A stretch of 23,671 bases of DNA, taken from the IMG/VR virus record IMGVR_UViG_3300006802_000583, positions 1 to 23,671 of that record; one strand, given 5' to 3'. The notes beneath the pieces were generated by a model. The model was not told where the DNA came from, did not search any database, and worked only from the letters and a program-made list of their open reading frames with translations. The stretch's first letter is position 1. Each line of letters begins with the position of its first letter. This stretch comes from a virus. Both the position numbers and the translations under genes were made by a program. Shown here in pieces: positions 6,667 to 20,437 of this stretch.

Positions 6667-7779
6667 ATGAAAAATAGTAAAATATGTCTAAATGGTATGG
6701 TTGGTAGTGAGGAAGCTACCATCCAACGAATGTTAGACTCGGTTGTAGATTATATTGATTATTATGTAATTCAATGTAATGGTAAAGACAAAACTCAAGA
6801 GATTATTGATAGTTTTTTTAAATCAAAGGGTGTTCCTGGCTTTACTTATTATGTAGATTGGAACTTTCCTGGTTGGAATCGTGACCATACTTTACAAGAG
6901 TGTTTGAAAGCAGACCACGGGTGTGATTGGATTCTGAGAATGGACGCAGATGAACAATTAAAAGTGGATGATGATTTTGATTGGAGTATATTAAACGATA
7001 CATCGGTGGAATCTTGGAATATTGTAGCAGACCCTGGAAATTCATTATATTTCCGTACTTGGATGTGGAACGCAAATCTACCTTGGTTCTTCCAACACGA
7101 CAAAAGACACGAAACGATACATTTACCAAATCGTGGTGAGGGTTTCCAAAGACTAAATCTACCTAAATCATTCAGACACATCATTACTAATGATGGTGAT
7201 ACTTGGATGGCACCAATGAAGTTTATTACCGATGGGCTGACCCTTGAACTTGATAAAGTACCAACAAGACTTGTACTTGAAGATTATTATCACCTATGGT
7301 ACATCGCAAAATCATACCACGATGGATATCGTGATATTGATAATCTACCATTTGGTAAAGCCCACTCAGATGAGTATGCTCGTAGAGTAATATTTTATTA
7401 TACTCAATATTTAAATAAAACGCATGATTTTGAAAGCAGACAACACTCTAAGTACGTTGATGATATGGGTTACTATGCTTGTATTTTGATTTCGGAAGCA
7501 TATGATTGGATTGGTGATGTTGATAACGCATTACACTACTTGAAGACTGCAACCACTTTTAATTCTCGTAGAAACGAACACTACGTCAAACTGGCACAAT
7601 TGTATCAAAGATTGGAACAATGGGAAAATATGGTTCACGTTACTGGAATGCTCGTTAATCCACAAAGAACCAATCCATTTCCTGAGTTTTCATTCTTGAT
7701 AGAAAACTCCGCATATTGTGATACTGGTAACTTTTGTAACGAACTACACGAAATTGCATTAAATGGACTCAACTCGTAA
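6667..7779 (+). CDS. Family 2-like glycosyltransferase with TPR-like C-terminus
   Basis: A 370-residue putative GT-A glycosyltransferase that would transfer a sugar from a nucleotide sugar. The N-terminus has the family 2 pattern: ICLNGMVGSEEATIQRML, then YYVIQCNGKDKTQEII, and a metal-binding DxD in ILRMDADEQL (D93, D95). The C-terminal part (roughly 270-345) contains helical pairs such as AYDWIGDVDNALHYL and LAQLYQRLEQWENM that look like TPR repeats. The start follows the thioredoxin stop by three bases (TAAGTTATG), and the end overlaps UDP-galactopyranose mutase by 17 bases. That coupling suggests the two act together on a galactofuranose-type sugar. The acceptor is unknown: phage DNA, a virion protein or host surface glycan are all possible. 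Confidence 0.75.
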   Translation: MKNSKICLNGMVGSEEATIQRMLDSVVDYIDYYVIQCNGKDKTQEIIDSFFKSKGVPGFTYYVDWNFPGWNRDHTLQECLKADHGCDWILRMDADEQLKVDDDFDWSILNDTSVESWNIVADPGNSLYFRTWMWNANLPWFFQHDKRHETIHLPNRGEGFQRLNLPKSFRHIITNDGDTWMAPMKFITDGLTLELDKVPTRLVLEDYYHLWYIAKSYHDGYRDIDNLPFGKAHSDEYARRVIFYYTQYLNKTHDFESRQHSKYVDDMGYYACILISEAYDWIGDVDNALHYLKTATTFNSRRNEHYVKLAQLYQRLEQWENMVHVTGMLVNPQRTNPFPEFSFLIENSAYCDTGNFCNELHEIALNGLNS

Positions 7780-8866
7780 ATACGATTATATTATTGTTGG
7801 TGCTGGGTTTTTTGGAGCAATCTGCGCTCACGAATTAAAAAAAGCCGGTAAACGGGTTGCTGTTTTAGAGAAACGAGACCACATTGGTGGAAATACTTAC
7901 ACCGAAGAGAAAGATGGAGTGCATATTCACAAATATGGTGCCCATATCTTTCATACCAATAATAAAGATGTTTGGAATTATGTAAATCAGTTTGCAGAGT
8001 TCAGACAATATGCTCATAGTGTCATTGCTAACTATAAAGGTAAGATTTACACCCTACCATTTAATATGAATACATTCAATCAAATGTGGGGAGTAACTAC
8101 ACCTCATGACGCAAAGAAAAAGATTGAAGAACAGCGATATGATGGTAAGATAACCAATTTGGAAGAACAAGCTCTTTCGCTCGTTGGTAAGGATATCTAC
8201 GAACGGCTGATTAAGGGTTATACTGAAAAACAATGGAGAAAACCTGCGACTGAACTACCAGCATCAATCATAAAACGACTGCCTGTTAGATTTACCTACA
8301 ACAACAACTATTTCAACGATAAATACCAAGGTATTCCAATAGGTGGATACACTCAGATATTTGAAAAAATGTTGGATGGTATTGATGTAAAATTAGGCGT
8401 TGACTACCTTTCCGAAAAGGACAAGTGGGATGTAATGGCTGATACGGTAATTTACACAGGCCCAATCGATAAATACTTTGACTATCAATTTGGTGATTTA
8501 GAATACAAATCAGTTTGTTGGGACACGATGAAGATTAATAGTGACAATTACCAAGGATGTGCTGTGATGAATTACACCGATGATTCCTCATTTACTCGTA
8601 TTATTGAACACAAATACTTTGATGACCAAAATCAAAAAGTAACGTGGGTTAGTATGGAGTTCCCACAAGAGTATAAGAGGGGTATTGAACCATTTTATCC
8701 GGTGAATGATGAAGCAAACAACGAAAAGTATCGTAAGTACAAAAAACTCGCAGATAATGACAAAGTAATATTTGGCGGCAGACTCGCAGAGTACAAATAT
8801 TACGATATGCACCAAGTAGTGGCCTCTGCGTTAAATAAAGTTACTAAAATCTTGGAAAATGAATAA
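7763..8866 (+). CDS. glf: UDP-galactopyranose mutase
   Basis: Flavoenzyme that converts UDP-galactopyranose to UDP-galactofuranose. The 367-residue length is typical. The N-terminal FAD-binding fingerprint is YIIVGAGFFGAICAHEL, followed by VAVLEKRDHIGGNTYTEE and the substrate-region motif KYGAHIFHTNNKDVW. Further family features are YTEKQWRKPATELPASIIKRLPVRF, seen here as separate blocks around residues 150-175, and a C-terminal FGGRLAEYKYYDMHQV that closes the FAD site. The ATG lies inside the glycosyltransferase gene (17-base overlap), so translation is coupled. The -33 box of promoter P2 lies in the last codons. A glf gene in the replication region of a T4-like phage is unusual and implies the phage makes its own activated Galf donor. 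Confidence 0.92.
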   Translation: MDSTRKYDYIIVGAGFFGAICAHELKKAGKRVAVLEKRDHIGGNTYTEEKDGVHIHKYGAHIFHTNNKDVWNYVNQFAEFRQYAHSVIANYKGKIYTLPFNMNTFNQMWGVTTPHDAKKKIEEQRYDGKITNLEEQALSLVGKDIYERLIKGYTEKQWRKPATELPASIIKRLPVRFTYNNNYFNDKYQGIPIGGYTQIFEKMLDGIDVKLGVDYLSEKDKWDVMADTVIYTGPIDKYFDYQFGDLEYKSVCWDTMKINSDNYQGCAVMNYTDDSSFTRIIEHKYFDDQNQKVTWVSMEFPQEYKRGIEPFYPVNDEANNEKYRKYKKLADNDKVIFGGRLAEYKYYDMHQVVASALNKVTKILENE

Positions 8867-8896: not shown

Positions 8897-9100
8897 ATGG
8901 CTTTAAGAGGAGAATCACATCCACAACATAAACTTACGGAAAACCAAGTAAGGTCTATCCGTAAGTTGTGGGCTGTCGGACATCGAAACATCAGAGTATT
9001 AGCCCAAAACAATGGTGTATCACCTACCAACATTCGTAAGATTGTAAAAGGTGAAACTTGGACACATATTCTTTTTGGAGAATTTAATGATTATCAATGA
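8897..9100 (+). CDS. Small helix-turn-helix protein
   Basis: A 67-residue predicted DNA-binding protein. Residues 11-53 (HKLTENQVRSIRKLW, then VLAQNNGVSPTNIRKIVKG) match the small HTH seen at the ends of phage HNH homing endonucleases and in related stand-alone proteins; the recognition helix is about SPTNIRKIV. The ATG at 8897 is chosen over an in-frame GTG at 8882 because the GTG lies within the -7 box of promoter P2 and would not be in the transcript. The stop overlaps the first Mom-like start (ATGA), so the two are tightly coupled. In phage Mu, mom is preceded by its translational activator com. This protein is in the same position but is an HTH and not the zinc-finger Com, so any regulatory role is inference. 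Confidence 0.7.
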   Translation: MALRGESHPQHKLTENQVRSIRKLWAVGHRNIRVLAQNNGVSPTNIRKIVKGETWTHILFGEFNDYQ

Positions 9101-9855
9101 AAGTAGAAGGTAGAGTTTATACCGATACATCAAAACTGTCAGTAAGACCTATATCCAAGTCGGTTGCAAAGGATATAATTGTAGCAAACCATTATTCCCA
9201 CGCGTGGACTAAGGTATCTTACTCATTTGGATTATATGTTGAAGATAACTCTCACCAATTCTTTGAATCTACCGACAAACTAATTGGGGTTGCCTGTTAT
9301 GGTGACCCCATTGGTAGACTTACCGGCCAATCCATCTCTGAGATAATCAAACGAGACGAGGTTTTGGAATTGGTAAGATTGTTTGTATTTGATGACCACG
9401 GACATAACATCGAGAGTTGGTTCTTAGGTCAGACATTCGAGTGGTTACGTAAGAACTCACCAAAGATAAAAGCACTGATATCATACTCAGACCCAAAGGA
9501 AGGACACGCTGGCACAATCTATCAGGCTACCAATTGGATATACCAAGGTAACAAACTTAGATACAACGATTCATGGGGGTTCAAGTTTGAAGAAGATGGT
9601 GAGTGGATTCATGGTCGAACAATATTCCCTCAATATGGTACAAATGAACCTGCTAAGATACAAGAAATGGTAGACAAACCATTTTGGATTAGAAAAGAAC
9701 CAAGAAAGCATAGATACGTTTATGTACTTGCAAAAGGTGGAGTTAGAAGAAAGATTCTAAAGAATCTCAAACACCCACCATTCCCATATCCAAAAGGTGG
9801 TGATACTGAAGAAATGGAAATCCTAAAATTAGACCCAATTGAAAGAGGAGAATAA
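9097..9855 (+). CDS. mom: Mom-like adenine modification protein, copy 1
   Basis: A 252-residue protein of the phage Mu Mom type. Mom is a GNAT-fold enzyme that converts adenine in phage DNA to a carbamoylmethyl-type derivative that blocks restriction. Recognisable blocks are AKDIIVANHYSHAW (24-37), KLIGVACYGDPIGR (61-74), ELVRLFVFDD (91-100), then SYSDP (129-133) and GHAGTIYQATNWIYQG (136-151); the last is the most diagnostic stretch of the family. The C-terminus is basic (EPRKHRYVYVLAKGG). It starts within the HTH gene stop (ATGA overlap) and overlaps the second copy by 17 bases. The phage probably modifies its own DNA; the exact product and target sequence cannot be read from the sequence. 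Confidence 0.83.
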   Translation: MKVEGRVYTDTSKLSVRPISKSVAKDIIVANHYSHAWTKVSYSFGLYVEDNSHQFFESTDKLIGVACYGDPIGRLTGQSISEIIKRDEVLELVRLFVFDDHGHNIESWFLGQTFEWLRKNSPKIKALISYSDPKEGHAGTIYQATNWIYQGNKLRYNDSWGFKFEEDGEWIHGRTIFPQYGTNEPAKIQEMVDKPFWIRKEPRKHRYVYVLAKGGVRRKILKNLKHPPFPYPKGGDTEEMEILKLDPIERGE

Positions 9856-10633
9856 ACACTATGTAGACACCTCACGTGTTACGATTCGTGAGATTGGTAA
9901 GGCTACTGCAAAAGAGATGATAGTAACATATCATTACTCTCACGCATGGACTATGTGTAGATATGCATTGGGTGTATTCTATAAGACTGATGAAAAGGAC
10001 ATTTTAGGTAACGAAGAGCAGTTGATTGGATGTTTGGTCTATGGGTATCCAGTAGGTAGGTCAGCAATCAAGTCGGTTATCGATGGATTAGAGAAAGACC
10101 AATGTTTGGAGTTGACACGATTGTTTATACACGATGGGTATGGGTCTAATATCGAGTCATACGCTATGGGTCAGTCCTTTCAATGGATTAAAGAGAATGC
10201 TCCTAATATCAAGATGTTACTCAGTTACGCTGACCCCGAACAATTACACTTAGGTGGTATCTATCAAGCTACAAATTGGTTGTATCAAGATTGTCGTGAT
10301 ATTCAACTGATGCCAAACTACTCGATATCACTTACATCTAACCCTTACAAATGGATACATTCAAGAACTGTATTCTCACGATGGGGGTCTCATAACTTAG
10401 AACATCTCAAAACCGAAATGGGTAAAGAGAACATCAAAGAGTTTTGGAGAAAGAAAGAGTCACCTAAACATAGGTACATCCAAGTGTTAGGTCAGAACAA
10501 ATCAGAGAAACGGAAGCTAACCAAACAACTTAAACATAAGGTTAGTCCGTATCCTAAGAATCCAGAGGAGTTCATAGCTCCAGTAGAACGACACGAAACT
10601 TACGAGCCAGAAAATAAAGTAAGTTTTTGGTAA
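9839..10633 (+). CDS. mom: Mom-like adenine modification protein, copy 2 (TTG start)
   Basis: A 264-residue paralogue of the preceding gene, a bit under half identical by eye. It shares AKEMIVTYHYSHAW, LIGCLVYGYPVGR, ELTRLFIHDG, SYADP and GIYQATNWLYQ in the same order and spacing. No ATG precedes the conserved domain in this frame, so the TTG at 9839 is taken as the start. With that choice the two N-termini align residue for residue (MKVEGRVYTDTSKLSV against MKEENKHYVDTSRVTI). The start lies inside copy 1 (17-base overlap). Differences include loss of the GH pair (GHAGTIY becomes HLGGIY) and a longer insert after the YQATNW block, so substrate or target choice may differ. It is followed by the promoter region for the 173-aa gene. 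Confidence 0.8.
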   Translation: MKEENKHYVDTSRVTIREIGKATAKEMIVTYHYSHAWTMCRYALGVFYKTDEKDILGNEEQLIGCLVYGYPVGRSAIKSVIDGLEKDQCLELTRLFIHDGYGSNIESYAMGQSFQWIKENAPNIKMLLSYADPEQLHLGGIYQATNWLYQDCRDIQLMPNYSISLTSNPYKWIHSRTVFSRWGSHNLEHLKTEMGKENIKEFWRKKESPKHRYIQVLGQNKSEKRKLTKQLKHKVSPYPKNPEEFIAPVERHETYEPENKVSFW

Positions 10634-10750: not shown

Positions 10751-11272
10751 ATGTTACAATTAACAGAGTCGCCAATGACCGGGCGATTAAAAAAAGGTCA
10801 CTCTGAATCGATTAGTACAAAGGTAAAATTCTCAACGGGAGATTATCAGACAGTTTCGTATCCAAGTATCTCAAATGGATTACCAAATGGTAATATGAAG
10901 ATAGAAATGCAAAAGATTGGTTCTATGGAAGATGGTGGTCGTTCTCGTAACAAGGATGGGAGTGATTGGAGTGATTCTGAAAAGAAACTAATTTATTCAA
11001 AAGTCCCAACTGCACACATTGACCATTTGGGTAATGTATATCCATCCAAAAAAGAAATGAGAGTTGGAGTATCACCTATTGAATCAATTCGTACATTTGT
11101 AAAATTTCAATCTATTGTAGAAGAATTACAATGGCAATCTGAAATATACACTATGGAAGATGCTGAAAGAGATGGGTTTGCATATGGGTATCCTATGCAA
11201 ACGGAAACCCCTTGGATTGAAGAAGGTGATTTGGATAATTCAAAAAATAATCGTATATTTGTTAACCAATAA
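10751..11272 (+). CDS. Unrecognised 173-aa protein
   Basis: I do not recognise this protein. It is soluble-looking, with no signal peptide, membrane helix or cysteine cluster. The N-terminal half is polar with glycine- and serine-rich patches (SISNGLPNGNMK, GSMEDGGRSRNKDGSDWSDSE). The C-terminal half carries HIDHLGNVYPSKKEM and a likely helix SIRTFVKFQSIVEELQWQS, and the end is acidic. It has its own promoter (P3) with a longer leader than its neighbours. It is followed after three bases by the 595-aa protein, whose promoter lies in its last codons. The pair could work together, but nothing in the sequence states a function. Confidence 0.6.
   Translation: MLQLTESPMTGRLKKGHSESISTKVKFSTGDYQTVSYPSISNGLPNGNMKIEMQKIGSMEDGGRSRNKDGSDWSDSEKKLIYSKVPTAHIDHLGNVYPSKKEMRVGVSPIESIRTFVKFQSIVEELQWQSEIYTMEDAERDGFAYGYPMQTETPWIEEGDLDNSKNNRIFVNQ
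11230..11262 (+). promoter_or_regulatory. Promoter P7, inside the end of the 173-aa gene
   Basis: TTTGG at 11230-11234, a 19-base spacer ending in TCG, and TATATTTGT at 11254-11262. This is the copy whose -7 box fits the Bacteroidetes consensus TAnnTTTG exactly. It lies wholly within coding sequence, 13 bases before the next ATG (11276), and would allow the 595-aa protein, glycosyltransferase and polymerase to be transcribed independently. Confidence 0.72.
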
Positions 11273-11275
11273 GAA

Positions 11276-13063
11276 ATGAAAGATATGAACGAAATGACTA
11301 AATTTGAAAAGTGGTTGAAAGAAAAGTATCTACTATGGACTTCAGACACCACAAAATACGAAGACCGAGTTTCTAACTTTTCAATATCACCAAAAGAGTT
11401 ACAAGACATTTGGTTAAATAAAGACCAGAGTCGTGAAGTAGAGACTATTGCTGAAACTGATATTAAACCTACTATAAAAAATAGTATATCAAACCGACCA
11501 CCAAATTATAGTAATATAAGTAAACGGAAACAAAAAATATCCTATTTGTTAGGAGCTATTTCATACGTTCGTGACTATAACCAACTTGCAGTATCTTTGA
11601 TTATTAAAGAAAAGGGTAAGTTGAACTTTGACAACTTGTTAGCGAAAGATAGGGGTACATTTAACTTCTATATGACCAAAATGAATGAAAAACAAACTAT
11701 TCCCTTTTGGAAGGATATTGTTAACTTAAACAATCAGTTTGAGAAGAACAATCGTATGAAGCAGATTTTGAGTCGTATTGAAGAACTTATAGGCAAGGGT
11801 ATTGAATTTAGTGTTCGAGAAGCAGTTCCAAGTTCGTTGCTAAATGAATGGGAATCTGATGAAGAAATGATTTCTATCCGAATGAAGTATGAAACATACT
11901 CAAATCATAGTGGTGAGATGGATAGAATGAATAACAACCCAAATCCTTGGGTAGAGCATAACCACATTATGAACAATACACTTGTTCCTATGGTATATGA
12001 ATATCCGAATGTGTATAAAGAGGAAACTCTCAATAAAGCATATGATTTAGTTTGTAAATACCCATTGTTTTCAGGTAGTAACAAACTTTGTATGACATCA
12101 ATACCAAACTCTACTGTTGAGGAAAGTGAAGGTTTCATTCCGTGGATGTTCCATTCTCTAACTTATGGTAAACTAACACCATTAGAGATTGTATCAACCA
12201 TATCTCGTGGAACTGAAACCAATACTAAAACAAAATCTAAACATTATAAACTTGCCTTTGAAGCTAAAGATAAATTTTTAGATGAGTTCACTACATCATT
12301 GGAGTTTATGAATACCATCGCAAATCACCCTATGGTGTCTTCGTGGGTTACTGAGTATAATGACTATGTTGAAGTTAACTATCCAAATAAACGAAAGACT
12401 CCGACTAACATTAAAGATATACGAATTTCGAAGTGGGATACATTCTTTACAGTAGTAGTTAGTATTAAGGATATTCAAACGACAACCAAACGGAATGGTA
12501 AAGAACGATTGAATGGTATTACAGACAAGTTTTTTAAATCAGCTATTGAGGCTTTATCCGATGTAAACCTAATGAAAGAGTTAGCTGATACTAATGGTGG
12601 ACTTACAACTCGTTTTGAATTATTCTGGGAGAAGATTTCACTAAAAACGATAGATAAGTTAAACTTGGCTGAGCAAGGTCAATTTGATGTGACCAACCTA
12701 CACCATATTTTAAAAACAAATTTGGTAGACGCTGGTATGTGGGGTAACGCTTTAGAAATTTATGACCGAAAGTCATCAACGGAATTTGAATTGATTGATA
12801 TTTCTGACTTCAAAAATCTACAAGAGGGTCACTTGATACCAACGGGTAATATCACATATGGTAACATTGTGTTACAACCAAAAGGTGATAATAAATTCAA
12901 TAATAATCACCCTATCAAAAGTATTAGTAAATATATTGATGAGTATATGTTAGAGCTTAATGAGTTCTTTGAAAACTCACCAATCACTCAAAACCCATTA
13001 GCCGTTCTTCGTACAAAAGAAGTACTGAAGAGTTGGGTTAAACAACAAGAATATACAGCATAA
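11276..13063 (+). CDS. 595-aa protein with a C-terminal HNH-like patch
   Basis: I do not recognise the whole protein. Near the C-terminus, residues 515-545 contain LQEGHLIPTGNITYGNIVLQ, then PKGDNKFNNNH. This resembles the H...N...N/H core of HNH nucleases as found in restriction-type enzymes (a 'GHIIP...NLVLQPKxxN' pattern), with H519, N530, N539 and H545 as possible key residues. No zinc-binding cysteine pairs accompany it. The N-terminal 450 residues are mostly helical-looking with many charged residues and show no other motif I can name. The gene has its own promoter (P7) and lies one base upstream of the glycosyltransferase that precedes DNA polymerase. A nuclease role is a weak inference. 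It could equally be a large structural or regulatory protein. Confidence 0.45.
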   Translation: MKDMNEMTKFEKWLKEKYLLWTSDTTKYEDRVSNFSISPKELQDIWLNKDQSREVETIAETDIKPTIKNSISNRPPNYSNISKRKQKISYLLGAISYVRDYNQLAVSLIIKEKGKLNFDNLLAKDRGTFNFYMTKMNEKQTIPFWKDIVNLNNQFEKNNRMKQILSRIEELIGKGIEFSVREAVPSSLLNEWESDEEMISIRMKYETYSNHSGEMDRMNNNPNPWVEHNHIMNNTLVPMVYEYPNVYKEETLNKAYDLVCKYPLFSGSNKLCMTSIPNSTVEESEGFIPWMFHSLTYGKLTPLEIVSTISRGTETNTKTKSKHYKLAFEAKDKFLDEFTTSLEFMNTIANHPMVSSWVTEYNDYVEVNYPNKRKTPTNIKDIRISKWDTFFTVVVSIKDIQTTTKRNGKERLNGITDKFFKSAIEALSDVNLMKELADTNGGLTTRFELFWEKISLKTIDKLNLAEQGQFDVTNLHHILKTNLVDAGMWGNALEIYDRKSSTEFELIDISDFKNLQEGHLIPTGNITYGNIVLQPKGDNKFNNNHPIKSISKYIDEYMLELNEFFENSPITQNPLAVLRTKEVLKSWVKQQEYTA

Positions 13064-13064
13064 T

Positions 13065-14183
13065 ATGAGAGTATTAGTAATACCAAATTATACAAACTTT
13101 GGGGCTGTTAAGGACATCAATAGGGATTCGTTCCTATTGGTGTTTAAGTCCTTTATAGAGAATACTGAAATAGGTAAAGAATGGGAGTGGGTTTTACCAT
13201 ATCCTGACTTTAGTAATCATCCCGGCATCATCAATAAATTTGAACATCCAAATGTTGAGTTGATATCAATGGATGGTTTAGATTGCTTTCCACCTAAAAT
13301 GAGGGTAGACTATCCACATAAGTTCTTCAATAGACTCATTGAAAAATACAATGGTGAATTCAACTTGATTTGGAGTCATCTGCCTGAATGGACCAATGAG
13401 TTTAAGGTCAGTCGTATCTATAATAAGTCACAACCTATAATCGGATATTCTCATTGGTGGGAAATAAAAGATAATGGTGCTAGAGATACCAATTCGTTTT
13501 TTAGAAATGTAAATGGTATGTTGCAAATGAAAGTTTGTGGTGTAAATTCACAATGGGTAAAAGACTTAGTGATTAAACGTGCATCTGAAATATTCCAACC
13601 ACATATCATTGATAAGTTAGAGAATATTATCCAGCCGTGGTATTTGGGATGTGATTCAGCTACTCCAACATCTACTTATGAACCAAAGACCATTTTATTC
13701 AACCATAGATGGGGTGTGTATACTGGTGCTGAGTGGTTCTTTGAAGCTATGGATGAGTTATGGGAAACGCGTAAAGATTTTCAAGTGTGGTCTTCTTTAA
13801 AAGATATGGATAAACCATACGCTAAATACATTGGTCACGCTGATAGAAACGTATATATGAATCAAATGTCTAAAGCACATTTTGGTGTAGGTACATTCCA
13901 AGGGTATTCAGCTTGGTCTATGTCTGCTACTGATGGTTTATCTCGTGGAGTTCCATATTTACTTCCAAATGAGTTTTGTTATCCCGAAATGGTTGGAAAT
14001 GATTATCCACTACTTTACAATGGTAAAGAAGAATTCAAAGAAATGGTTGTTAAGTTATTGGATGGTGATATTGAACGACCTGATGTAACTCATATTGCAG
14101 AATCTCTATTATGGGAACATCAACTAAAGAGTTGGAAGATTGAAGAAAACTTTGTTAATACTGCTAGAAAAGACTTTAATTAA
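13065..14183 (+). CDS. GT-B type glycosyltransferase
   Basis: A 372-residue putative glycosyltransferase of the two-domain GT-B fold. The C-terminal domain opens with KTILFNHRWGVYTGAEWFF (about 208-226), a typical first strand and helix. It continues with a YIGHADRNVYMNQMSKAHFGVG block and, around 280-303, SAWSMSATDGLSRGVPYLLP and NE, the usual nucleotide-sugar-binding segment with an acidic residue followed by a 'G-P-L-P' loop. The N-terminal domain begins MRVLVIPNYTNFGAV. It sits between the HNH-like gene and DNA polymerase, overlapping the polymerase start by one base (TAATG). T4 carries DNA glucosyltransferases of the same fold, so DNA is a possible acceptor. A virion or host-glycan acceptor cannot be excluded. 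Confidence 0.72.
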   Translation: MRVLVIPNYTNFGAVKDINRDSFLLVFKSFIENTEIGKEWEWVLPYPDFSNHPGIINKFEHPNVELISMDGLDCFPPKMRVDYPHKFFNRLIEKYNGEFNLIWSHLPEWTNEFKVSRIYNKSQPIIGYSHWWEIKDNGARDTNSFFRNVNGMLQMKVCGVNSQWVKDLVIKRASEIFQPHIIDKLENIIQPWYLGCDSATPTSTYEPKTILFNHRWGVYTGAEWFFEAMDELWETRKDFQVWSSLKDMDKPYAKYIGHADRNVYMNQMSKAHFGVGTFQGYSAWSMSATDGLSRGVPYLLPNEFCYPEMVGNDYPLLYNGKEEFKEMVVKLLDGDIERPDVTHIAESLLWEHQLKSWKIEENFVNTARKDFN

Positions 14184-16699
14184 TGTATCAAAATGTATAC
14201 TTCGAAAAAGAAAATAATCTCATCCATTGTTGGGATGATGAGAAAGGGTACTTCACATCTAAATACCGTAGATATGCTTACGTTAGAGATGGTAATGGTG
14301 CTCACACTTCTATTCACGGAGAGCGTCTTAAAAAGATAAACTTTTGGAAACAAGATGAAGGTCTTGAGCTATACGAAAGTGATGTAAACGAGATGACACG
14401 ATTTCTGATTGACCAATATGGTGATTCAGATGAGGTATCGACTGGACATACTGTACTTACCTTTGATATTGAGGTAGAGATGAATAGTGGTCTACCCGAT
14501 ACAAATGAAGCTAAGAATGCTATGACTTCAGTCGCAGGTCACGATTCGGTGAGTGGTGATTACTTTGTATATGTTGTAAACAAAGGTGAAAAGATTAATA
14601 AGACCATCAAAGGTGCTACGGTAGAATCGTTTGATACTGAAGAGGGTATGTTAGTTGCATTCCTAAACAAATGGAAAGAAGTCAACCCAACTATTATTAC
14701 TGGTTGGAACATTGACTTCTTTGATGTCACGTATCTATACAATCGAATGAAGAGAGTGTTGGGTGAGTCTATGGCAAACCAACTATCACCGATTGGTAAA
14801 GTTCATTGGAATAAGTATCGTAATCGTTATTTGATTGCTGGTGTGTCTGCATTGGACTACATCGCTCTATTTAAGAACTTTACATATACCGAATACCCAA
14901 ACTACCGATTAGACACTATTGCTAATTTGGAGTTGGGTAGAGGTAAGATTGAGTATGAGGGTAACCTTGACCAATTGTTCAGAGATGACTTAGAGAAGTT
15001 TATTGAGTACAACTTAGTAGATGTTGAGTTAGTTGTGGATATGGACAAGAAACTTCAGTTCATTGACTTAGCTAGAGCAATATGTCACGCAGGTCACGTA
15101 TTCTATGAAGACTTCTTATTCTCATCAAAATGGTTAGAGGGTGCAATGTTAACATTCCTACGTAGGAGTGGTCGTGTTGCTCCAAACAAACCAAGACGAA
15201 GAGCACGTAATGATGATGGTACTGAGGCTGAAGGTAAGTTTACTGGAGCATATGTAAAAGAACCTAAACCTGGTCTTTACAAATGGGTATATGATTTGGA
15301 TTTAACATCACTATATCCATCTATTATTATGACCATCAACATCTCACCAGAGACAAAGATTGGTAAGTTAAAGAACTATGTGGCTGAAGACCATATGAAG
15401 GGTAAGATTGAAACATATTCAATTATCGATGACGATGGTAATGAGTTTCCCCCATTGGCTAAAGATAAGTTTATGGACTTTATCGAAAAGTCAAACTACT
15501 CAGTCGCTGCTAATGGTGTTCTTTATCGTAGAGATAAGGTAGGTGTGATTCCTGAGATTCTTAATGTTTGGTTTGACAAACGTGTGGAATACAAAGACCT
15601 TATGAAGAAATATGGTAAGGAAGGTAATGATGAGTTGTATAAGTTCTACTCTCAACGTCAGTTGGTACAAAAGATTATGTTGAACTCCTTATATGGGGTA
15701 CTTGGTCTACCATCATTCCGATTCTATGATGTGGATAATGCTGAGGCAACCACAATCACAGGTCAGACTGTAATTAAGACTACCGAGTTTATTGCTAACC
15801 AATACTACACAAAGAACATTGGTAAGGAAGCAGATTACAATGTGTATACTGATACGGATTCCGTATTCTATCAGGCAGCTCCGCTTGTAAAAGCTCGTAA
15901 CCCTGAGATTGACGAGAACTCAGATGAACAAATGATTCCAGCAATTCTATCAGTTGCAAAAGAGGTTGAAGAACACATAAATAATGTTTATGACCAGATG
16001 GCATTTAAATTGTTCAACGTAGACACTCACCGATTCGACATCAAACAAGAGACTATCGCTAAGGGTGGTTTTTGGGTATCGAAGAAGAGATACGCTCAAT
16101 GGATTATCAATGATAATACCGTTGATTGTGATAAGCTGGATGTGAAGGGGCTAGATGTAAAACGTTCATCATTCCCAGTATACTTTAAAGAGGTAATGTC
16201 TACTGTACTGATGGATATCCTAAAGGATGAGGACAAGAAGAAGTTGGACGATAAAATCCTAAACTATAAGGATGGGATGACTAACCAACCATTTGTAAAT
16301 ATTGCAAAGAACTCGGCTGTAAAGGATATGTCTAAGTATAGGTTTAAGGACCAAGCACTTGGTGAGTTTATGAAGGGGACACCTGCTCACGTAAAGGCTG
16401 CACTTACTTATAATCAATTGTTGAAGAAGTTTAACGCTCCTTACAAATATGAACCAATGAAAGATGGTGATAAAATCAAATGGGTATATCTAAAGAAAAA
16501 TCCACTGGGACTTCAGACTACCGCATTTACTGGTCACTCAGACCCACCTGAGATAAACGCATTTATCGAACAATACATTGACTATGATTTGATTTGGGAG
16601 AAAGAGTTGAACAATAAGTTGGATGACTTCTACAAAGCAATGGATTGGGAGAAGCCAAATCCGAATCTGGCTGCTGCAGCACAATTCTTTTCATTTTAA
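14183..16699 (+). CDS. 43: DNA polymerase, family B (gp43 type)
   Basis: Replicative polymerase with proofreading. The 838-residue length is near T4 gp43 (898). Exonuclease motifs: Exo I TFDIEVE (D95, E97), Exo II ITGWNIDFFD (N176, D181), Exo III YNLVD (276-280). Polymerase motifs: A DLDLTSLYPS (371-380), B QKIMLNSLYGVLG (about 496-508), C YTDTDS (555-560; D557, D559). All catalytic residues are present, so both activities should be intact. The C-terminal end AAAAQFFSF resembles the short hydrophobic tail by which T4-type polymerases bind their sliding clamp, and the clamp gene follows immediately. No intein or split is seen, although split or intein-bearing polymerases are frequent in relatives. 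Promoter P4 begins at the base after the stop. Confidence 0.95.
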   Translation: MYQNVYFEKENNLIHCWDDEKGYFTSKYRRYAYVRDGNGAHTSIHGERLKKINFWKQDEGLELYESDVNEMTRFLIDQYGDSDEVSTGHTVLTFDIEVEMNSGLPDTNEAKNAMTSVAGHDSVSGDYFVYVVNKGEKINKTIKGATVESFDTEEGMLVAFLNKWKEVNPTIITGWNIDFFDVTYLYNRMKRVLGESMANQLSPIGKVHWNKYRNRYLIAGVSALDYIALFKNFTYTEYPNYRLDTIANLELGRGKIEYEGNLDQLFRDDLEKFIEYNLVDVELVVDMDKKLQFIDLARAICHAGHVFYEDFLFSSKWLEGAMLTFLRRSGRVAPNKPRRRARNDDGTEAEGKFTGAYVKEPKPGLYKWVYDLDLTSLYPSIIMTINISPETKIGKLKNYVAEDHMKGKIETYSIIDDDGNEFPPLAKDKFMDFIEKSNYSVAANGVLYRRDKVGVIPEILNVWFDKRVEYKDLMKKYGKEGNDELYKFYSQRQLVQKIMLNSLYGVLGLPSFRFYDVDNAEATTITGQTVIKTTEFIANQYYTKNIGKEADYNVYTDTDSVFYQAAPLVKARNPEIDENSDEQMIPAILSVAKEVEEHINNVYDQMAFKLFNVDTHRFDIKQETIAKGGFWVSKKRYAQWIINDNTVDCDKLDVKGLDVKRSSFPVYFKEVMSTVLMDILKDEDKKKLDDKILNYKDGMTNQPFVNIAKNSAVKDMSKYRFKDQALGEFMKGTPAHVKAALTYNQLLKKFNAPYKYEPMKDGDKIKWVYLKKNPLGLQTTAFTGHSDPPEINAFIEQYIDYDLIWEKELNNKLDDFYKAMDWEKPNPNLAAAAQFFSF

Positions 16700-16755: not shown

Positions 16756-17451
16756 ATGAAAAAGAACTCGTTAGAAGGTTTTATCGCCCGTTATAACTTG
16801 GGTGGTGAGGTTGAGAGTGTAAAAATCAACTCAACCAATGATGGAATGTCAGTTTCCTTTATCTCTGATGACAAAACCCTATTGGGTACGGTCACATCTG
16901 AAGAGGCTGAATTTCCAAATGGTGAGTATGGTGTGTACACTACCTCACAACTAAAAGGACTACTTGGTGTATTGGGTAGTCAAATGGATGTAAAAGAAGG
17001 TACGGCTGCATTGGTATTCTCGGATACTAAAACTTCAGTTAACTATATGTTGGCTGACTTGTCAGTAATTCCAGTAGTACCTGAATTAAAAGCACTTCCA
17101 CCATTTACATCTACTGTAACTATGGATGGTGACTTCATCGCTACATTTAGTAAAGCTAAAGGTGCTATGAGTGATTCAGACACATTTACATTTACGTGTA
17201 AGGAGAACAAAGGTGAGGTAATCTTAGGTTACTCTAAAATCAACTCAAACCGAATCTCTATCAACGTTGAATGTACGTGTGATGGTGATGTTGAACCAAT
17301 CTCATTCTCAGCTAAGTACTTGAAAGAAATCTTAGGTGCAAATCGTGGTGCTAAGTCATCTTCTTTGAAGATTTCACCACAAGGTCTTGCCCACGTTTCA
17401 TTCGAACACGATGGGTTTAAATCGGATTATTATCTTGTAGAGATTAAGTAA
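16756..17451 (+). CDS. 45: Sliding clamp (gp45 type)
   Basis: Ring-shaped processivity factor that tethers the polymerase to DNA; in T4 it also activates late transcription. The 231-residue length matches T4 gp45 (228). The sequence has the alternating strand pattern of a clamp with two domains: FIARYNLGGEVESVKINS and MSVSFISDDKTLLGTV in the first, and a second repeat with DFIATFSKAKGAMSDSDTF, then ISFSAKYLKEILGAN, and a final strand HDGFKSDYYLVEIK typical of the C-terminal end. There is no catalytic motif to check. The call rests on length, strand pattern and position after the polymerase and before the clamp loader. It has its own promoter (P4), which fits the need for more clamp than polymerase. 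Confidence 0.85.
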   Translation: MKKNSLEGFIARYNLGGEVESVKINSTNDGMSVSFISDDKTLLGTVTSEEAEFPNGEYGVYTTSQLKGLLGVLGSQMDVKEGTAALVFSDTKTSVNYMLADLSVIPVVPELKALPPFTSTVTMDGDFIATFSKAKGAMSDSDTFTFTCKENKGEVILGYSKINSNRISINVECTCDGDVEPISFSAKYLKEILGANRGAKSSSLKISPQGLAHVSFEHDGFKSDYYLVEIK

Positions 17452-17452
17452 T

Positions 17453-18643
17453 ATGCAGTTTTGGGACACGGAACCAGCGAAGCCTGTATTTGACTACGAT
17501 GTAGAGAAAAAGAAGTTCATTGAAAATATGGACTATCTTTCCTCTATGTCAGTTGAAGAGCAGACGCTTTATAAAAAGTGGGATGAGTGGAATTCAGACC
17601 TACCAACATCAATGAAACGGAAAGCCGCAATGGCTCAGTATATTGACCAATTGTGGTCACCTACTGATATTATGAATAAGGAACAAACAATCCAAGAGAT
17701 TGAGGACCTTGAACCATACGTTGAGATTGTAGAAGATTCCAAAGAATCCACTCGTTGGACTGAAATCCGTAAACTAATTCATACGATGTCATTTACAGCA
17801 AATCCTGGTCGTAACGTTAAGTTATACATTAAGGATAGAGTAAGTGGTAAGTTGTTAGGGTTGGTTTCGTTGGGTTCTGATGTCACTTCATTGGGAGTTA
17901 GAGATACCTACATTGGGTGGTCAAAGGACAACAAATTCAAAGATGGTCGATTGAACCACACCACAATCGCAAGTACCATTGTGTGTACTCAACCATTAGG
18001 TTACAATTTCTTAGGTGGTAAGTTAGTTGCTTGTATGACTACATCTCCAATCGTTCGTAAACATTGGAAAGAAAAGTATGGTCAAGAGCTAATAGCAGTC
18101 GGAACTACCTCTTTGTATGGTATCCACTCTCAATACAATGGAATCCCTCACTTCAAAACATTAGGTGAGTCTGCTGGTAAAGTTTCTACCAAACCAGATG
18201 ATTCAGTATACGATGTGTGGCACCAATGGATTAAGGAAAATAAGTCTGATGAGTATGATAAACACACCACTCAGAAAGATGGAATTGCTGGACCAGTATC
18301 AGGTGTAAAGCAACGTATCCTTACACTCATATTCAAAGAATTGGGTATCAAGCAAAGTCAGTATATGCACGGATTCAAACGAGGTGTATACTTCGCTATG
18401 TTGTATGATAATGGAAATGAGTTTCTTCGTAATGAGATTGACGAAAGTGAATTGAAGCTAAAGAAGAAGTTTGAGGAAGGTGACGATTATACTATGAGGT
18501 GGTGGAAGAAGAAGGCTATTAAACGATACTCTAAACTATTTGATGAGGGTCGTATTAAGCCAGAACCATTATTTTATCTTGACATCATTGGTATGTCTTG
18601 GGAAGAAGCAAAAAAACAATACTTAAAAGAAGTAGGACGATGA
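17453..18643 (+). CDS. DUF4338 (DruA-like) protein in the clamp/clamp-loader operon
   Basis: A 396-residue protein whose middle matches the DUF4338 family, known mainly from DruA of the Druantia anti-phage system. Matching blocks are GKLLGLVSLGSDV (132-144), RDTYIGWS (150-157), GGKLVACMTTSPIVRKHW (188-205), YGQELIAVGTTSLYG (209-223) and a later LGESAGK (237-243). The N-terminal 100 residues are helical and acidic, and the C-terminus is lysine-rich. It starts one base after the clamp stop and overlaps the gp44 start (ATGA), so it is made together with the replisome. DruA biochemistry is poorly known. Here a replication- or modification-related DNA role is more likely than defence against itself, but defence against rival phages is possible. 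Confidence 0.65.
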   Translation: MQFWDTEPAKPVFDYDVEKKKFIENMDYLSSMSVEEQTLYKKWDEWNSDLPTSMKRKAAMAQYIDQLWSPTDIMNKEQTIQEIEDLEPYVEIVEDSKESTRWTEIRKLIHTMSFTANPGRNVKLYIKDRVSGKLLGLVSLGSDVTSLGVRDTYIGWSKDNKFKDGRLNHTTIASTIVCTQPLGYNFLGGKLVACMTTSPIVRKHWKEKYGQELIAVGTTSLYGIHSQYNGIPHFKTLGESAGKVSTKPDDSVYDVWHQWIKENKSDEYDKHTTQKDGIAGPVSGVKQRILTLIFKELGIKQSQYMHGFKRGVYFAMLYDNGNEFLRNEIDESELKLKKKFEEGDDYTMRWWKKKAIKRYSKLFDEGRIKPEPLFYLDIIGMSWEEAKKQYLKEVGR

Positions 18644-19560
18644 GTAATTCACTATGGGTTGAGAAGTATCGACCAGACACATTAGAAGGTTATGTGGGTA
18701 ACGACCATATCCTTGAGAAGGTAAAGATTTACATCGAGAACGATGATGTACCACACCTATTACTTTATGGAGTAGCAGGTACTGGTAAAACCACTCTCGC
18801 TAAAATCATTACAAACCAAATTGATTGTGATGTTATGTACATCAACGCTTCGGATGAAAACTCGGTTGATGCAGTTCGTGATAAGATTCGTGGGTTCGCA
18901 TCATCTATGGGATTCCGTAAGTGGAAAGTTGTAATCTTAGACGAGTCTGATTATTTGACACCAAACGCACAAGCAGCACTCCGTAACTTAATGGAGACTT
19001 TCAGTAAATCAACACGATTCATATTAACGTGTAATTACGTGGAGAAGGTAATTGACCCTATCCAATCACGTTGTCAGACATTTGCAATCACACCCCCATC
19101 TAAGAAGGAAGTTGCAAAGAGACTGCATCAAATCTTAACTGAAGAAGGTGTTGACTTTAAGACTGAAGAATTGGCAGTATTGGTAAATAGTGGGTATCCC
19201 GATATTCGTAGAGTCCTCAACGCAGCACAACGACAAGTTGTTAAGGGCCAGTTGAAGATTGATTCTACCTCTACAATTCAAGCAAATTATGCCGATGACA
19301 TAGTTGAGGTATTGTGTTGGGATAACGACATTAAAGATAAGTTTACTAAAATCAGACAAATCATTGCTGATTCTAAAGTTAAAGACTTTACACCGCTATA
19401 TAGAACTCTATACGATAGGGTAGATACTTATGCAAGTGGTAAAGTGGGTCAGACCATCTTAAACATCGCAGATGGTCAATATAAAGACTCAATGGTAGTT
19501 GATAAGGAAATCAACGTAATGGCGATGATGTTAAATATATTAATAACAATAGGAAAGTAA
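18640..19560 (+). CDS. 44: Clamp loader large (ATPase) subunit, gp44 type
   Basis: AAA+ ATPase that opens the sliding clamp and loads it at primer ends. The start at 18640 is chosen because it gives MSNSLWVEKYRPDTLEGYVG, the standard opening of the family; a longer frame from 18598 adds 14 residues with no family resemblance and lies inside the previous gene. Walker A is GVAGTGKT (44-51), Walker B ILDESDYLT (D101, E102), sensor 1 FILTCNY, and the arginine-finger motif SRC is at 143-145. At 306 residues it is close to T4 gp44 (319). It overlaps the DUF4338 gene by four bases. It is separated from its partner gp62 by two small genes, unlike T4, where 44 and 62 are adjacent. Confidence 0.93.
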   Translation: MSNSLWVEKYRPDTLEGYVGNDHILEKVKIYIENDDVPHLLLYGVAGTGKTTLAKIITNQIDCDVMYINASDENSVDAVRDKIRGFASSMGFRKWKVVILDESDYLTPNAQAALRNLMETFSKSTRFILTCNYVEKVIDPIQSRCQTFAITPPSKKEVAKRLHQILTEEGVDFKTEELAVLVNSGYPDIRRVLNAAQRQVVKGQLKIDSTSTIQANYADDIVEVLCWDNDIKDKFTKIRQIIADSKVKDFTPLYRTLYDRVDTYASGKVGQTILNIADGQYKDSMVVDKEINVMAMMLNILITIGK

Positions 19561-19737: not shown

Positions 19738-20019
19738 ATGGCTAAGAAAAAAGGTAAAATCGTAGAGATGGGTCAGCCGGCTCAATCTCCACAAATGAAT
19801 TTGGATGTTACAAAACTAAAGAATGTAACGTGTCCTCAATGTGATGGTATTTTCTTTGATGAACTACAAATGTTCAAAGAGGTATCAGCAATGCAATCTC
19901 CAAATGGTCAACCATCGATGTTACCAATCCCAGTTGTTGTATGTAATAATTGTGGTACAGTACATCCTAAGTTTACACCAAAAGAGTTATTTGAAGATGT
20001 CTCAACCGAAGAAAAGTAA
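19738..20019 (+). CDS. Zinc-ribbon protein
   Basis: A 93-residue protein with two CxxC pairs: C32-P-Q-C35 (NVTCPQCDG) and C69-N-N-C72 (VVCNNCGTVHP). The 33-residue gap includes FFDELQMFKEVSAM and a flexible QSPNGQPSM. This is a zinc ribbon. The N-terminus is basic (MAKKKGK) and the C-terminus acidic (ELFEDVSTEEK). It begins three bases after the histone-like gene and overlaps the gp62 start by 23 bases. It may be a small transcription or replication adaptor; T4 has small co-activators that link the clamp to RNA polymerase, but I see no sequence match to them. Function is otherwise unknown. Confidence 0.7.
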   Translation: MAKKKGKIVEMGQPAQSPQMNLDVTKLKNVTCPQCDGIFFDELQMFKEVSAMQSPNGQPSMLPIPVVVCNNCGTVHPKFTPKELFEDVSTEEK

Positions 20020-20437
20020 GACATTATTTCAACATCTTTCGGGTATCAAGGAGCAGAAAGCTTCTTGGGAGTCTCTATCGGTTATGGATAGAAAGAGTTT
20101 CGAACCATATATGGTGAATAGATTTTTGTCTATGAATATGGGACTCCTTGAGCTGGTCAATGAACTACAAAAGTACACCATTGGTCAGCTCTCTCCGAGG
20201 GATGTTTACAAGTTATATTTGGATGTTTTACCTAAGAAAAAGTCATTCGACAAGTATATCAAAGGTAGTAAGGAATCTAAACATCACAATATGGTAGTGG
20301 ATTATCTATCAATGTACTTTGAAGTATCAAAAAGAGAGGTTTTAGATTACCTTGAAATCCTATCAAAGGATGAAGTTACCAACATTATCCAAAAGTTTGG
20401 AGTAGATAAAAAAGATATTAAGAAATGGCTGAAGTAA
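19997..20437 (+). CDS. 62: Clamp loader small subunit, gp62 type
   Basis: Non-ATPase partner of gp44 in the clamp-loader pentamer. The start at 19997 (MSQPKKSKTLFQHLSG) is chosen because it follows the compact overlap style of the operon; the frame is open further upstream, but that part is out of frame with and inside the zinc-ribbon gene. The 146-residue length is between cyanophage gp62 and T4 gp62 (187). Typical pieces are RKSFEPYMVNRFLSMNMG (about 32-49), a helix LLELVNELQKYT, and the basic block YLDVLPKKKSFDKYIKG, which resembles the 'P(R/K)KR/S-F' segment of the family. A C-terminal extension with KREVLDYLEIL and FGVDKKDIKKWLK follows. The call is supported by position and by the visible blocks. 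Confidence 0.72.
   Translation: MSQPKKSKTLFQHLSGIKEQKASWESLSVMDRKSFEPYMVNRFLSMNMGLLELVNELQKYTIGQLSPRDVYKLYLDVLPKKKSFDKYIKGSKESKHHNMVVDYLSMYFEVSKREVLDYLEILSKDEVTNIIQKFGVDKKDIKKWLK

Follow-up and report, generated by a model that had tools for sequence, protein, structure and literature searches.

A phage gene of the DruA (DUF4338) family lies between the sliding clamp and clamp loader genes of a T4-type replication operon, and its product is best read as a replication-coupled, DNA-modifying acyltransferase that belongs to an exchangeable counter-restriction cassette. We hold this reading with little more than even confidence: from the family membership of the protein, its position, selection and predicted fold, the kinship between canonical DruA and Mom, and an exchange with a DNA glycosyltransferase in sister phages, we infer catalysis on DNA, an acyl donor, binding to the clamp and a protective role. 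The gene was found in a virus DNA of 23,671 nucleotides (IMG/VR record IMGVR_UViG_3300006802_000583), the whole of which was analysed and is called the window below.

According to this proposal, phage-type DruA would be a GNAT-fold acyltransferase, a distant relative of Mom, and would place covalent modifications on bases in the DNA of the phage itself. Synthesised with the clamp and the clamp loader, it would act at the replication fork or close behind it. Together with two mom genes, and possibly a glycosyltransferase gene upstream of gp43, it would form an exchangeable DNA-modification cassette that shields the phage DNA from host nucleases.

Our literature search found no stated biochemical role for DruA. 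Once the family is tied to Mom and to an operon slot shared with a DNA glycosyltransferase, an unexplained defence protein becomes a testable DNA-modification enzyme, and the phage relative suggests what the defence protein DruA itself may do. If the proposal is true, one principle, known for the T4 alpha-glucosyltransferase, would couple protective DNA modification to phage replication, and marine and freshwater phages might carry an undescribed chemical modification of DNA.

A full-length DruA homologue in the replication operon

The replication genes around DruA in the window are listed here.

14183 to 16699, plus strand: gp43, family B DNA polymerase, C-terminus AQFFSF
16756 to 17451, plus strand: gp45, sliding clamp, T4-type (PHROG 223, E 3e-9), stop 1 nt before the DruA start
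17453 to 18643, plus strand: phage-type DruA/DUF4338 protein, predicted GNAT acyltransferase (profile matches, alignment, AlphaFold2 model)
18640 to 19560, plus strand: gp44, clamp loader large subunit (PHROG 168, E 6e-80), 4-nt overlap with the DruA stop
19997 to 20437, plus strand: probable gp62, clamp loader small subunit, assigned by position only

The DruA open reading frame (ORF) runs from an ATG start to a TGA stop and encodes 396 amino acids. The initial annotation had placed it in DUF4338, and profile searches bore this out. Pfam PF14236 (DruA) matched with E 9.2e-24 and 84.5 bits, about three times its curated cut-off of 27, and the match covered nearly the whole profile (residues 53-326 of the protein, positions 12-296 of 297 in the profile). 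The PADLOC DruA profile matched with E 1.1e-24. Judged by these matches, the ORF is a full-length DruA/DUF4338 homologue. The motif RDxxIGW is at residues 150-156, with R150, D151, I154, G155 and W156 conserved in at least 90% of the phage alignment, and it is common to nearly all members of a second alignment, one with canonical DruA. The N-terminal tail is disordered and conserved, and its W4 is invariant.

The junction of gp45 and DruA reads TAA-T-ATG, with a gap of 1 nt, and the junction of DruA and gp44 reads ATGA, with an overlap of 4 nt, so that coupled translation of gp45, DruA and gp44 is likely. The position between clamp and clamp loader with tight coupling on both sides, as originally described, thus agrees with the PHROG matches and the junction sequences. 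For gp44, the first start in the ORF list, a TTG at 18598, was rejected in favour of 18640. No Druantia partner gene, above all none for the large helicase DruE, was evident among the ORFs of the 23.7-kb window, which is a phage fragment.

The dN/dS of the window DruA against six relatives was 0.05-0.12, with similar values for gp45 and gp44, and this argues that it is a functional gene. Its conservation is about equal to that of the core genes gp43, gp45 and gp44.

Position of DruA genes in related phages

A survey of T4-like relatives agreed with the observation made in the window and made it more general. Wherever the contig covers the slot, the order gp45-DruA-gp44 was kept in the IMG/VR loci L001-L080 except L076, in some cases with further genes separating DruA from gp44. 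Dozens of T4-like contigs, marine and freshwater, have DruA relatives adjoining replication or recombination genes. Other relatives carry DruA upstream of gp43, next to mom genes or a glycosyltransferase gene; it follows gp46 in pelagiphages and freshwater phages, and gp41 in some relatives. Pelagibacter phage HTVC008M has two different DruA genes (KC465899.1, 86116-87258 and 99535-100659; loci L082 and L261); one of them follows gp46, and the other, which has an ATGA overlap, is flanked by gp43 and uvsX.

DruA-like proteins of Synechococcus phages have already been reported by structure (PMC12774648); the part of that report dealing with them points out their fold and does not discuss position or function. 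These proteins (phrog_19197) belong to the same phage-type subfamily as the window protein and are likewise encoded inside a replication cassette. They differ from it in having only about 27% identity to it, in occupying the gp44-gp62 slot (11 of 11 cyanophages of that type examined) and in lacking the conserved FWDTEP tail of the window type. In phage S-B68, the gene is near gp47.

An unrooted 70-row tree separated three main phage groups, with canonical DruA on a long branch. It implied at least 8 changes of DruA position, all inside the replication module, several of these being local moves inside a single cluster of genes.

Not all T4-like phages carry the gene. DruA was found in 31 phage records, compared with 2592 phage records with a match to T4-type gp43, and none was found anywhere in the genome of Microcystis phage Mel-JY01, the closest isolate by gp43 (48%). 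A search of GTDB genome contigs gave one match, in a TMED198 MAG contig that is probably phage. A plasmid search gave remote matches only (about 26%).

Position alone is a weak argument for a role in replication, because in T4-like phages such slots between genes often house accessory genes of various kinds. Other small ORFs and genes for dUTPase and endonucleases are also present there. DruA might then be one more accessory gene that a tolerant slot of a core operon has taken in, functionally unconnected with replication, and its absence from Mel-JY01 and from most records with a T4-type polymerase would fit. We regard this as very improbable: every one of the position changes stayed within the same module, ATGA overlaps were seen in several lineages, and the gene is about as conserved as its core neighbours.

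Exchange with a DNA glycosyltransferase in sister phages

In the contigs L253, L258 and L259, which come from different samples, the place exactly between gp45 and gp44 is occupied not by DruA but by a TAGT DNA glycosyltransferase gene (L253:5699-6952; PF20691, E 7e-36; PHROG 842). The three are sister phages of the window, with identities of 88-89% in gp43, 75-76% in gp45 and 89-93% in gp44. Neither DruA nor Mom was found within these contigs of 17-51 kb. Upstream of gp43, L259 encodes one ABC-ATPase-plus-GNAT protein (L259:1211-2392), which replaces the stretch of mom1, mom2, two ORFs and the glycosyltransferase gene of the window. For proteins of this architecture, acylation of DNA bases has been predicted (PMC7824862).

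Mom genes upstream of the DNA polymerase gene

In the window, the stretch replaced in L259 consists of the following genes.

9097 to 9855, plus strand: Mom family DNA-modification protein, copy 1 (PF25680, E 6.8e-46; PHROG 1384)
9839 to 10633, plus strand: Mom family DNA-modification protein, copy 2 (PF25680, E 3.1e-48; PHROG 1384)
10751 to 11272, plus strand: 173-aa protein, no convincing Pfam or PHROG match, in a block missing from the TAGT-bearing sister phage L259
11276 to 13063, plus strand: 595-aa protein, no convincing Pfam or PHROG match, in the same block as the 173-aa ORF and missing from L259
13065 to 14183, plus strand: putative glycosyltransferase, a weak assignment, the protein itself matching no profile; homologues adjoin DruA in other loci

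Of 19 long contigs tested that carry DruA and belong to the lineage of the window, 18 had at least two mom genes. The pelagiphage-type contigs G214-G216 have DruA and no Mom, which counts against the proposal. Three loci (L005, L007 and L013) have Mom between gp43 and gp45. In two more (L114:3441-4166 and L132:2027-2779), a second, small DruA of canonical type is directly upstream of mom2, the usual position of mom1. For the putative glycosyltransferase, one homologue gave a weak match to Glyco_transf_4. The two ORFs between mom2 and this gene (10751-13063) are possible further parts of the cassette.

Farther upstream, positions 6667-8866 of the window encode a family 2 glycosyltransferase followed by a UDP-galactopyranose mutase (Glf). 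This pair points to a galactofuranose product, which may be meant for DNA or for surface glycans.

Predicted fold

Structure prediction, which the initial annotation had proposed as a check, gave a GNAT acyltransferase fold. The AlphaFold2 model, built from 54 window and viral sequences, had a pLDDT of 90.4 and a pTM of 0.84, and its best matches among solved structures (PDB, Foldseek) were GNATs, with a probability of up to 0.97 and E no better than 4e-3. When the DruA alignment was searched against the sequences of solved structures, no relevant match came up. The residues Q180-P-L-G183-Y-N185, which form a motif-A-like Q180-x-x-G183-x-N185, follow beta-strand 170-178 (strand 4) of the model; this is where the GNAT superfamily has its CoA-binding motif. 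In the phage DruA alignment, Q180, P181, G183, N185, G188, G189 and K190 are nearly invariant (QPxGxNxxGGK). We conclude from the model that the window DruA has a GNAT fold, and we infer the CoA site at this motif. An independent study likewise treats DUF4338 as a GNAT domain, in that case one joined to DndF (PMC10853773).

In the fold search, proteins of giant viruses (Faunusvirus, Yasminevirus and Dasosvirus) also matched the DruA model, with E 1e-9 to 1e-19.

The fold of the model would also serve for a protein acyltransferase, one that acetylates replisome or host proteins and, for example, switches the use of the host polymerase or clamp. The gene adjoins clamp and loader genes, and acetylation of the host's RNA polymerase by phage GNATs has been described (Rac, PMC7824862). 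The homology of canonical DruA to Mom and the same-slot exchange with a DNA glycosyltransferase both point to DNA as the substrate, however, and we consider a protein substrate unlikely.

Relation to Mom and to Druantia DruA

Nine DruA proteins from bacterial genomes and phage loci, most of them canonical, were combined into a profile, which matched that of the window Mom proteins with a probability of 91 and E 1.1e-6. The Pfam Mom model (PF25680) matched 5 of the 9 DruA proteins of this canonical set, with a best E of 5e-5. On these profile matches, canonical DruA is a relative of Mom, a phage DNA-modifying GNAT. Mom acylates N6 of adenine in DNA (PMC7824862).

The phage type is related to Mom through canonical DruA. 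Phage-type and canonical DruA profiles matched with E 5e-30, but when the phage-type profile was aligned directly to that of Mom (hhalign), no match was seen, nor did PF25680 match the window DruA. The two motifs that carry the similarity of DruA and Mom, HYLG and G-x-CY-x-AANW, are missing from the phage type, and so are the HY and YxAxNW motifs of Mom from the window DruA. What the two have in common is the GNAT superfamily and their co-occurrence in these phages. The relation is therefore transitive, and the chemistry of the phage type may differ from that of Mom or may be lost.

The loss of HYLG and AANW suggests a second alternative, in which the fold now serves as a non-catalytic DNA-binding or clamp-binding subunit that tunes clamp loading or processivity. 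Conservation similar to that of gp43, gp45 and gp44 would be expected of such a replisome accessory, and so might the conserved disordered N-terminal tail with its invariant W4. We think it improbable, since the CoA-binding-like QPxGxNxxGGK is nearly invariant and since phages with about 90% identical gp44 do without DruA and have a DNA-modifying enzyme in its place.

Compared with DruA of Druantia type I, the phage type has the same Pfam domain over nearly the whole length and shares RDxxIGW. It differs in its motifs, with QPxGxNxxGGK and TTSLYG...SQY instead of NNSRFLILP...NLAS and ETFVD...YxAANW. Window and pelagiphage DruA proteins, of about 396-432 amino acids, have extra N-terminal and C-terminal helices relative to canonical Druantia DruA.

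The homology to a Druantia component could also mean that the phage protein is a weapon against host defence or against other phages. It might act as a decoy for Druantia-like systems or inhibit them, or it might be a superinfection factor that the phage took over from a defence island of a host. Few canonical cellular copies were sampled, and most of them were beside or fused to transposases, which would make capture possible. This explanation seems to us quite unlikely in view of the strong purifying selection noted above, the deep branch of its own on which the phage type stands in the 70-row tree, and the repeated location in the replication module and not in a variable accessory region. 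The initial annotation had further suggested that an ancestral function was recruited for defence, or the reverse; the long branch between phage-type and canonical cellular DruA favours neither direction.

Among the canonical copies, DruA is fused to a Tn5-type transposase or is beside IS66, Tn5-type or other DDE transposases (L278:1306-3624, L279, L284, L285 and L286), which suggests that canonical DruA genes travel as transposon passengers. In another bacterial genome (L280:1303-3108, minus strand), ParB_N is fused to a phage-type DruA, and a resolvase-like ORF, recognised by eye, lies upstream. We count this fusion among the arguments for our proposal.

Proposed coupling of modification to replication

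An ancestral DNA-handling function linked to the clamp had been suggested for the family. The results support a replication-linked role on DNA, but DNA modification fits better than a generic clamp-linked activity because of the Mom-related GNAT fold, the association with mom genes and the slot exchange with a DNA glycosyltransferase.

In T4, the alpha-glucosyltransferase is a gp45-binding enzyme that probably modifies DNA while it is being replicated (PMC13216743; PMC6024577). By analogy, it is a DNA modifier of T4-like phages as proposed here for DruA, with gp45 binding being a feature of the T4 enzyme. TAGT (PF20691) is a DNA modifier in the same gp45-gp44 slot, in sister phages. Both are glycosyltransferases, however, with a fold unrelated to DruA and no homology to it.

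A bolder form of our proposal joins two claims: that in T4-like phages a GNAT tethered to the clamp acylates newly made DNA at the fork, which would be a new hypermodification, and that Druantia DruA belongs by ancestry to the DNA acyltransferases of this superfamily. We put it forward tentatively, as rather doubtful in this combined form. As a lead from sequence, the N-terminal FWDTEP of DruA, which the cyanophage branch lacks, is a candidate clamp-binding peptide; gp43 of the window ends in QFFSF.
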